Shown here in pieces: positions 16,603 through 59,520 of a stretch of DNA of 64,000 nucleotides (positions are counted from its first letter, which is position 1; the number at the start of each line of letters is the position of its first letter). Source of the stretch: Rhizobium sp. CG5. GTDB taxonomy: Bacteria > Pseudomonadota > Alphaproteobacteria > Rhizobiales > Rhizobiaceae. Location of the stretch: contig NZ_JABAEF010000005.1 of assembly GCF_023701945.1 (NCBI RefSeq), positions 124,001 through 188,000 on the forward strand, written 5' to 3'. Below the pieces are notes generated by a model. That model saw only the letters and a program-made list of their open reading frames with translations, was not told the origin of the DNA and made no database searches. The position numbers and the translations under genes are program-made.

Positions 16603-17223
16603 CTATTCCGGCCGGGAACCCGGAAACTCCGCAAGCCTTGCGGCATAACGCGCCATGGTATCAACTTCGAAATTGACGAAGTCGCCGGCCTTGCGCTCGC
16701 CCCAGGTGGTCACTTCCAGCGTGTGACGGATCAGCAGCACATCGAAATCGCAATGATCGACCTTGTTGACGGTCAGCGAGGTGCCGTCGAGCGCCACGGA
16801 GCCCTTGGGCGCCACGAAGCGCGCCAGAGGTTCGGGCACCCGCAGGGTGTAGCGCGTCGCATCGCCTTCTGACGTGACCGAAATGATCTCCGCCTTGCCG
16901 TCGACATGGCCGGAGACGATATGGCCGCCGAGTTCGTCGCCGATCTTCAGCGACCGCTCCAGATTGATATGGGTGCCCTTGCTCCAGGTGGCGATCGTGG
17001 TCAGACGCAGCGCCTCTTCCCAGGCCTCGACCTCGAACCAGCGGGCATTGCTGCCCTCGTCCGGCAGACCGGTCACGGTCAGGCAGGTGCCGGAATGGGC
17101 GATCGAGGCGCCCATGGCGATGGTGGCGGGATCGTAATTGGTGGCGATCCTGAGCTTCACACCTTCTTTTAAAGGGGTAACGCTCTCAACGGTGCCGATA
17201 TCGGTGACAATGCCGGTAAACAT
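16603..17223 (-). CDS. ribE: Riboflavin synthase alpha subunit
   Basis: Dismutates two lumazine molecules to riboflavin (206 aa). It shows the two tandem lumazine-binding repeats: MFTGIVTDIGTV ... SIAHSGTCLTVT in the first and EPLARFVAPKGSVALDGTSLTVN in the second, plus HIVSGHVDG. The ATG at 17221-17223 overlaps the ribD stop (ATGA), so the two are translationally coupled. It ends the glyA-nrdR-ribD-ribE run. The leading methionine encoded by TTG in the longer frame is not needed. Confidence 0.95.
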   Translation of the reverse strand: MFTGIVTDIGTVESVTPLKEGVKLRIATNYDPATIAMGASIAHSGTCLTVTGLPDEGSNARWFEVEAWEEALRLTTIATWSKGTHINLERSLKIGDELGGHIVSGHVDGKAEIISVTSEGDATRYTLRVPEPLARFVAPKGSVALDGTSLTVNKVDHCDFDVLLIRHTLEVTTWGERKAGDFVNFEVDTMARYAARLAEFPGSRPE

Positions 17224-18500
17224 CAAAACGCTCTTTCAAAACAAGTGCAGATGTCCGCGCCGAACTGCTTTGTGCCACGGCGGGAGAATTCATCCGGTAT
17301 ATTGGCTGTTGTCAGCGGCGATGCAATGCCGTCCGCACCGATTTTGTCCGGCCCTTGGAACAGCAGGATACGATCGACGAGACCCGCGTCCAGAAAGGCT
17401 TTGGCGGTTGCCGCCCCGCCTTCGACCAGCACGGAGGAAATGCCCCGCACAGCGAGCGTCATCAGCAAATCAGCAAGCGTGGTCGCCTGCACGATTTCGA
17501 CGCCGGCGGACCGAAGAGCGGCGCCGCGGTGAGTGAGGTCGACGGAATAGTTGGTGGTCTCGATACCCCCCTCTGTCCTGCCGGACATCTCCCCCTCAAG
17601 GGGGGAGATCAATGCGCGGACGCCGATCGTTTCAACAATCTCAGAGGTATCTGCGGAAGCGAGCGCCCGCCCCGACTCGATCTCCCCCCTTGAGGGGGAG
17701 ATGCCCGGCAGGGCAGAGGGGGGTACCCCAGCCTCGGCAGATCTTCCATCCGTCACCAAAAATACTGGCACATCCTGCGCCGTCTGCACCAGTTTCGACG
17801 TCAGCGGCAGCTCCAGCCGCCGGTCGAGCACGATGCGAACCGGCGAACGCGCCTCCAATCCCGGAATGCGCACCGTCAGTTCCGGATCGTCGGCCAGCGC
17901 CGTGCCGATGCCGACCAGGATCGCATCCGTCTCGGCCCGCAGGGCGTGGACCACGGCACGCGACCGATCGCCGGTGATGCGGACCTGGCCGGCGCCTGCC
18001 CGGCCGAGCATGCCGTCAACGGAGACGGCAAGCTTCAGAATCACATAGGGACGTTTTTGCGTCTGGCGGGAGAGGTAGTAGGCCAGTGCCCGGCGGGCCG
18101 GCTGCTCCAGGACGCCCACCGTCACCGCTATGCCGGCATCCTCAAGAATCTTCAGGCCGCGGCCCGAGACGCGCGGATCGGGATCGGTGACCGCCACGAC
18201 GACGCGGGCTATGCCGGCCTCTACCAGCGCATGGGCGCAAGGGGGCGTGCGGCCGTGATGGGAACAGGGCTCCAGCGTCACATAGGCTGTTGCCCCCCTC
18301 GCCTGCTCTCCGGCATCGGCCAGCGCCTCGGTTTCGGCATGGGGTCGACCGCTTAAGGCCGTCACGCCGCGGCCGACGATCCTGTCATCCTTGACGATGA
18401 TGCAGCCGACGGAGGGATTGGTGGAGGTCTGTCCGAGATGGGTCAGCGACAGGCGGATTGCGGCCGCCATGTAGCGCCGGTCATGGGAGAAGCCGGACAA
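17223..18500 (-). CDS. ribD: Bifunctional deaminase/reductase RibD with palindromic-repeat insertion
   Basis: Catalyses two successive steps of riboflavin synthesis: zinc-dependent deamination and NADPH reduction. The deaminase domain (residues 1-145) has the zinc ligands His54 (HAE), Cys79 and Cys88 (PCSHHGRTPPC). The reductase domain follows with KLAVSVDGM and RAETDAILVG. At 425 residues it is longer than the usual 360-385 because about 54 residues (259-313) are encoded by a palindromic repeat inserted in frame; they contain SPSRGEIE and ISPLEGEMSGRTEGG. The insert lies in the reductase domain between VFLVTDG and VEIVQAT, probably a surface loop, so the enzyme may remain active. Coupled to ribE by ATGA. 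Confidence 0.93.
   Translation of the reverse strand: MSGFSHDRRYMAAAIRLSLTHLGQTSTNPSVGCIIVKDDRIVGRGVTALSGRPHAETEALADAGEQARGATAYVTLEPCSHHGRTPPCAHALVEAGIARVVVAVTDPDPRVSGRGLKILEDAGIAVTVGVLEQPARRALAYYLSRQTQKRPYVILKLAVSVDGMLGRAGAGQVRITGDRSRAVVHALRAETDAILVGIGTALADDPELTVRIPGLEARSPVRIVLDRRLELPLTSKLVQTAQDVPVFLVTDGRSAEAGVPPSALPGISPSRGEIESGRALASADTSEIVETIGVRALISPLEGEMSGRTEGGIETTNYSVDLTHRGAALRSAGVEIVQATTLADLLMTLAVRGISSVLVEGGAATAKAFLDAGLVDRILLFQGPDKIGADGIASPLTTANIPDEFSRRGTKQFGADICTCFERAF
17564..17725. repeat. Palindromic element inserted inside ribD
   Basis: Inverted repeat arms of 47 bases (17564-17610 and 17679-17725) match at 45 of 47 positions, with a 68-base spacer; the outer end is TACCCCCCTCTG and the inner end CTCAAGGGGGGAGATC. 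Each arm contains its own small palindrome. The 162-base unit is a multiple of three and keeps ribD open. The right arm is homologous to a stretch at 59445-59487, so the same repeat family occurs twice in the window. Confidence 0.9.
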
Positions 18501-59321: not shown

Positions 59322-59520
59322 CCTCTGCGTCAGGGCTATCGCATATGAAACGATTCCCCTCCCAAACCCTCCCCACAAGGGGGAGGGCTTAACCCAGCCG
59401 CGAACTCGCCGCCTAGAATAGAACCGAGCGGTTTCCCCGGGCCTTCTCCCCCCTTGTGGGGGAGATGGCCGGCAGGCCAGAAGGGGTTTTTTCTCATATG
59501 CAATAGCCCTCCCTCTGCGT
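59322..59520. repeat. Palindromic element with 9-bp flanking direct repeats
   Basis: The direct repeat CCTCTGCGT occurs at 59322-59330 and 59512-59520. Between them an element of about 181 bases (59331-59511) has terminal inverted repeats AGGGCTATCGCATATGAAA (59332-59350) and its partner at 59492-59510 (17 of 19 matches). Its inner right part, 59445-59487, is about 39 of 44 identical to the right arm of the ribD insert. The left inner part (CCCTCCCCACAAGGGGGAGG) is a diverged copy in opposite orientation. Confidence 0.85.

Follow-up and report, generated by a model that had tools for sequence, protein, structure and literature searches.

The stretch of DNA analysed here (64,000 nucleotides, in the following the window) contains a ribD gene that carries a long palindromic repeat within its reading frame. 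It belongs to a genome of 6.5 Mb in 53 contigs (G000). Over 3762 bases there is no difference between the RibD loci of Ciceribacter lividus DSM 25528 (L009) and of G055, a genome of the same genus as G000, which places the window's species in the Rhizobiaceae and in the genus holding C. lividus. The relevant features are (window coordinates):

17223..18500, minus strand: ribD, coding for a bifunctional deaminase/reductase of 425 amino acids that carries the insert (open reading frame; Pfam and NCBIfam; AlphaFold2)
17564..17725, no strand: palindromic repeat of 162 bp, in frame, about residues 259-313 of RibD (inverted-repeat scans, fold)
17564..17610, plus strand: arm of 47 nt, minus-strand reading ...ISPLEGEMSGRTEGG
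17679..17725, minus strand: arm of 47 nt, minus-strand reading PPSALPGISPSRGEI...
17611..17678, no strand: middle of 68 nt, particular to the ribD copy and stop-free both ways in the ribD frame
16603..17226, minus strand: neighbouring open reading frame, judged from its sequence a likely riboflavin synthase
59445..59487, minus strand: single arm of this family, diverged (44 bits), one of three unpaired arms in the genome

The open reading frame at 17223-18500 matches RibD across both domains (TIGR00326 with 311 bits at a cut-off of 156). All columns that are invariant in an alignment of 57 rows (H54, E56, C79, C88, K156, D204 and others), presumably the catalytic residues, are kept. The insert comprises 54 codons on the minus strand and is located between the strand of the reductase domain ending ...VPVFLVT and the helix starting ...RGAALRSAGVE. 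An AlphaFold2 model based on 57 rows has a mean pLDDT of 85 and finds its best PDB matches among solved RibD structures; residues 256-258 and 267-315 fall below a pLDDT of 50 and stand between strand 246-250 and helix 318-331. Because of these low values between strand and helix the insert is predicted to form a disordered surface loop outside the folded core. The first-pass annotation had described a 162-bp inverted repeat with 45 of 47 arm matches, which adds about 54 residues in frame to an otherwise intact RibD. This description was borne out, including the exact coordinates, and the structure prediction it had proposed for the loop gave a pLDDT mostly below 50. That ribD is decaying and the insert represents a lesion is scarcely conceivable, as nothing besides the insert itself was found in its favour; the domains are intact, the invariant residues are common to other RibD proteins and no second full-length bifunctional copy is present among the own-genome matches listed.

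The two arms are complementary at 45 of 47 positions, and in a repeat search the palindrome extends to arms of 70 nt with 84% complementarity. A second inverted repeat of equal strength (arms of 47 nt, at least 40 matches, gap of up to about 200 nt) was not found in the 64-kb window. Folded as RNA with some 14 nt of flank at either end, the palindrome reaches -141.7 kcal/mol versus -83.3 kcal/mol (sd 5.3) for shuffled sequences, none of which (0 of 200) folded as well. The search of Rfam at gathering scores yielded a single match in the window, a tRNA elsewhere, and none on the palindrome.

The repeat is a member of a dispersed family. At least 119 matches to the ribD segment were found on two strands of the own genome, with 40 of 96 candidates scored. 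Their arms pair into 40 elements and leave three arms unpaired; after exclusion of one pair whose right arm is weak, 39 paired copies were used, 36 of them with a length of 140-210 bp. The arm consensus derived from 79 arms is tACCCCCCTCTGcCCTGCCGGgCATCTCCCCCTCAAGGGGGGAGATCG, the arm ends read YACCCCCC and the paired copies possess terminal inverted repeats, a feature of MITEs. The middles differ between copies with the exception of two CobN neighbours that are 96% alike and two further short partial matches. Palindromic middles (p<0.05) occur in 5 of the 39 paired copies and are at most weakly a general feature.

Outside the own genome the family has a scattered occurrence. Within an order-wide sample a match was detected in 11 of 199 genomes including the own one (five in the own family, six outside, with at most four candidates scored per genome). 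Matches occur also in 181 plasmid records, 140 of which are from Rhizobium or Sinorhizobium. Annotation is available for 56 of 60 plasmid rows taken from across the ranking, and none of these 56 has a gene at the position of the match, the gene table being incomplete. The element ends are YA at left and right alike in 29 of the 39 pairs, 13 of which have TA/TA, and a duplication of TA with one further base was seen in none of the 39. Mobilisation by a RAYT-type transposase (Y1_Tnp, PF01797) was rejected, since the own genome has no match to PF01797; 5 of 14 controls were positive. Mobilisation of the IS630 type via TA targets was considered as well and the own genome has two matches to DDE_3, but no arm-like ends lie near either gene. 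From the earlier reading as a selfish repeat, the dispersal, the in-frame position and the absence from the nearest relative can thus be retained, while neither a target duplication beyond YA nor, in the Y1_Tnp and DDE_3 families searched, a transposase with these ends was found.

Comparison of RibD loci from related genomes reveals both occupied and empty sites. A RibD without the insert, of 364 residues versus 425, is found in G030, the sister genome (87% core identity, 100* clade), and this is the empty site that the first-pass annotation had suggested looking for in relatives. Arms inside RibD are present in two of the 30 loci read in the own genus (G000 and G034) and in none of the 57 from the family and from genus g46. 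A conserved segment unrelated to the repeat and carried by all orthologs, which had been named as the contrary outcome, is not what these loci hold: the repeat arms are found in 2 of 87, and where the segment is present among them it is the repeat. The RibD elements of G000 and G034 are equal in length and have weakly similar middles. Both genomes may share one old insertion, and if so the state of G030 is a loss. The RibD of G034 (L125) comprises 541 amino acids; the element is followed in the same loop by three extra in-frame tandem units of 114 bp, which are 89-92% alike and each end in a right arm.

In genus g30 the same place is used frequently. This genus is probably Rhizobium, since the RibD of R. 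leguminosarum bv. trifolii WSM2297 (P0065) matches g30 genomes up to 91-95%. In 22 of the 30 loci read this place holds one or more arms (threshold 8 bits), and in 8 it holds none; the 30 loci are the best of 60 obtained with an insert-bearing query, so that carriers are over-represented, and one of them (L269) ends at its contig edge. The elements of L258 and L259 are partly deleted and that of L255 is decayed (arms of 19 and 13 bits). In L256 the frame changes inside the element and is restored before the gene resumes, which means that the frame is kept and the peptide is not. Nested in the left arm of L241, L245, L247, L248, L257 and L260 is a further short insertion, likewise in frame (YRGRATGLDPSFGP and others). 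In the best 120 protein hits, a list that favours insert-bearing proteins, a loop resembling PPS.LP.ISP.RGE ... GE..GR.EGG can be recognised by eye in all except P0004, P0005 and P0083.

Genus g46 has a different repeat-like segment (RGEGARRADEG...) at the same place of RibD in 12 rows and in L218, with L197 doubtful. The loci with this segment are L183, L212-L214, L217, L218, L221-L223, L228, L231, L233 and L236, and a module similar to it appears, by eye, at CobN site 2 (see below). On a quick RibD tree of 115 rows, reconstructed with the loop excluded (L208 dropped, L269 excluded, L197 unscored), presence changes by gain or loss at least 11 times. The presence of the insert is patchy among close species. 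The in-frame insertion into ribD noticed from the sequence is thus real and at the same time no singular event, as the same loop is reused in g30 and holds another repeat-like segment in g46.

A second gene with repeated use of the same places is cobN. The own CobN open reading frame includes three paired elements and one arm. CobN site 1 has 112 residues in P0001 versus 11 in the solved CobN 9uk9, and site 2 has 170 residues versus none. Paired elements within the stop-to-stop CobN frame occur in 18 of 30 loci of the genus and amount to 22 pairs, all of which (22/22) have a length that is a multiple of three and the same phase, against a length of 3n in 1 of 12 related pairs located upstream of, outside or across the edge of the CobN frame. 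In g30 all ten elements at site 1 are in frame and of length 3n, a count that covers this site and leaves out L279. In the own genome the length is 3n in all five copies located in recognised genes (RibD, three in CobN, an FtsY-like gene) versus 12 of the 34 others, some of which may sit in genes not recognised here. An absolutely fixed reading frame had to be rejected, since in the FtsY-like gene (SRP54 domains) the copy is in frame overall and its left arm is read in another frame; the frame is nearly but not always fixed.

Some further observations concern the surroundings of cobN. A related element upstream of this gene is found in 12 loci (L155-L179), it has 196 or 238 bp in seven of them and is not frame-bound. 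At CobN site 2 mosaics of repeat modules were seen by eye (21 of 30 loci viewed). In L158 (G013) the stop-to-stop frame of CobN ends early (944 codons) with the remainder in another open reading frame, i.e. this cobN is broken or misassembled beside an element.

An extreme hairpin within a coding region, as present in ribD, could indicate that the segment is transcribed but then skipped through RNA excision or ribosome bypass, leaving a normal protein; bypass and intron-like elements do exist. Skipping would not require the frame to stay open, however. No stop interrupts any of the 22 CobN pairs or, apart from L269 which is cut by its contig, any of the RibD copies read, and this counts against skipping and makes it very improbable.

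The arms differ from their host genes in how they diverge. In ten g30 RibD genes the divergence at fourfold sites is 3.9% and 6.8% in the arms, 30.1% in the middle and 35.4% in the core, and at the amino-acid level arms (9.2 and 9.7%) and core (9.8%) are alike. The corresponding fourfold-site values for nine CobN genes (L161 left out) are 2.3% and 9.6% for the arms, 32.8% for the middle and 30.8% for the core. Only genes in which both arms could be recognised entered the two sets, a choice that favours well-preserved arms. Since the arms are far less diverged at synonymous sites than the host genes, the data point to maintenance of the arms as DNA rather than as peptide. The insert had earlier been regarded as added peptide; it does add 54 residues in frame, but in its arms the DNA is more conserved than the peptide. 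Compensatory pairing within one element was considered as the cause and rejected, because arms of the same element are no more alike (0.884) than arms of different elements (0.886; 1249 of 2000 shuffles as high), i.e. no within-element pairing signal was detected. The likeness of the arms is likely due to recombination or gene conversion with the remaining copies in the genome.

Conservation of the arms at synonymous sites, together with the repeated use of the same place and the strong RNA fold, would also suit a module selected by the host, either as a hairpin (RNA processing, mRNA stability) or as a peptide useful in these enzymes. We consider this improbable, as 34 of the 39 own pairs lie outside recognised genes (part of the flanking open reading frames was scanned), the annotated plasmid rows are without a gene under the match (56 of 56, with an incomplete gene table), presence is patchy among close species, the pairing signal within elements is absent and L256 reads a different peptide.

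In our opinion the most convincing explanation, with a probability of roughly 0.8, is that one of about 40 dispersed palindromes inserted in ribD and was kept as it is in frame, with RibD predicted to be full-length and to carry a disordered surface loop of 54 residues. The repeat likely entered ribD by insertion and was retained because a segment of 54 codons without a stop does not interrupt the gene. Insertions at other places or out of frame would have been purged by selection, the arms would be kept like the other genomic copies through recombination or gene conversion, and the full-length RibD would be translated and active with a tolerated loop.

Since the arms are inverted, recombination between them could flip the middle, and differences in orientation between near relatives at CobN site 1 imply that it can. 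At this site the middle of G030 is the reverse complement of that of G000 (identity of 0.89 inverted versus 0.50 direct), with CobN genes that are 94% identical in the part compared. Among the 14 own-genus elements examined, L154, L157, L158 and L163 are inverted relative to G000 (0.89, 0.83, 0.81 and 0.69), L155, L156 and L161 have the same orientation (0.74, 0.70 and 0.79), and L159, L160, L171, L175, L177 and L178 are too different to call. Opposite orientations are found between the sisters L153 and L154 (100*) and between the near relatives L155/L157 and L161/L163, and the CobN tree of the own genus shows at least four orientation changes at site 1. In g30 L270 and L284 are inverted versus L273 and L275 (0.81-0.88), which corresponds to at least two changes, L270 and L273 being sisters at 97*. 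The middle at CobN site 1 has about 100 bp, and its inversion is seen in two genera.

Inverted arms of 47 bp around some 100 bp are hard for short k-mers and several of these assemblies are drafts, so flipped CobN middles could be choices of the assembler, with short reads unable to orient the segment. We judge this improbable, since L270 (G276) and L275 (G261), both from assemblies of 7 contigs, are still opposite (inverted identity 0.81), and since the inverted middles have diverged by 11-31%, which fits old events. Flipping by recombination, as preferred here, may also take place within a living population.

When the middle is flipped, the reading stays free of stops in 13 of 14 own-genus elements at CobN site 1 and in all nine g30 elements at this site that have a middle, against 4 of 8 elements at site 2; the rows of site 1 are related to one another and these counts are therefore not independent. 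From the other copies of the own genome 13 of 34 are open both ways in that frame. At CobN site 2 no inversion was conspicuous; of seven elements, L179 alone had its better score in the inverted orientation, at 0.50. In RibD of g30 flipping would introduce a stop into 7 of 18 middles; inversion was rejected there, because 30 of 153 pairs match better inverted but at identities of 0.32-0.56, which is noise. For RibD of G000 and G034 the middles agree at 39 of 68 positions inverted (0 of 20000 shuffles as high) versus 32 of 68 direct (p 0.00025). Each of these two middles is itself about half palindromic (34 and 36 of 68), and a flipped RibD middle is therefore only suggestive. Whether palindromes turn enzyme surface loops into in-frame invertible cassettes, so that CobN and plausibly RibD alternate between two stop-free loop sequences, we regard as a question with about even odds.

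Several known systems resemble these elements. Rickettsia palindromic elements (RPEs; Ogata 2000, 2002) are described in the consulted parts of PMC10969869, PMC3733652 and PMC2229807 as palindromes of 100-150 bp with long stem-loops, which are intergenic or in frame in conserved genes where they add peptide, and a guanylate kinase carrying an RPE insert is given as active in the consulted part of PMC2229807. The first-pass annotation had likened the ribD repeat to RPEs. By its behaviour (dispersed, in frame, in a conserved gene) the ribD segment indeed seems to work like an RPE, the likeness being one of behaviour and not of compared sequences. As far as the consulted parts of these papers describe RPEs, both are multi-copy palindromes (39 paired copies here, mostly of 140-210 bp and thus somewhat longer) with in-frame copies in conserved genes (RibD, CobN, FtsY-like) besides copies elsewhere, here 34; the rhizobial elements differ in that their hosts are Rhizobiaceae with large genomes, the places in RibD and CobN are reused and the CobN middle flips.

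By their name the Rhizobium-specific intergenic mosaic elements (RIME; Osteras 1995) are rhizobial repeats too, and CobN site 2 looks mosaic-like; RIMEs are named intergenic, whereas the repeats described here occur also in genes. Intragenic invertons (Chanin 2024, as cited in the consulted parts of PMC11868660 and PMC11892184) likewise have a segment of an open reading frame between inverted repeats in both orientations; here the orientations were seen between species only and the inverted repeats are ends of a dispersed repeat. REP elements with their RAYTs, as far as they are presented in the consulted part of PMC3733652, share small palindromic arms that are single or in inverted pairs, but the own genome has no Y1_Tnp gene and the arms end in YACCCCCC instead of GTAG. 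Bru-RS of Brucella, another alphaproteobacterium, are palindromic repeats of about 105-118 bp which the consulted part of PMC2267715 lists as intergenic, again compared by description only. A report on in-frame palindromes in rhizobia was not found in the literature searched, i.e. titles and abstract starts with most subscription papers outside its coverage, and the search with the insert peptide gave unrelated papers only.

Palindromes inside protein genes are known from Rickettsia (consulted parts of PMC10969869 and PMC2229807) and, by the title of a reference, from Wolbachia. The same behaviour is seen here in genomes of Rhizobiaceae of 4-8 Mb, repeatedly at the same places of RibD and CobN. 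Measured against those partial accounts, the Rhizobiaceae host, the reuse of places, the upkeep of the arms at the DNA level and the inversion of coding middles between species would be additions to the known picture. Near relatives differ by the presence or absence of elements, by tandem growth, by nested insertion and by inversion, and this makes it testable how selfish repeats shape proteins and whether intragenic inverted repeats make reversible variants. If the alternation of loops is true, coding palindromes would supply bacteria of large genome size with reversible variants of their proteins and be more than a curiosity of Rickettsia.

A siroheme-synthase-like open reading frame of the own genome (L112, G000:C26:28333-29640), situated near a contig end, has one good arm and an apparently decayed one; the domain matches do not cover its N-terminal part.
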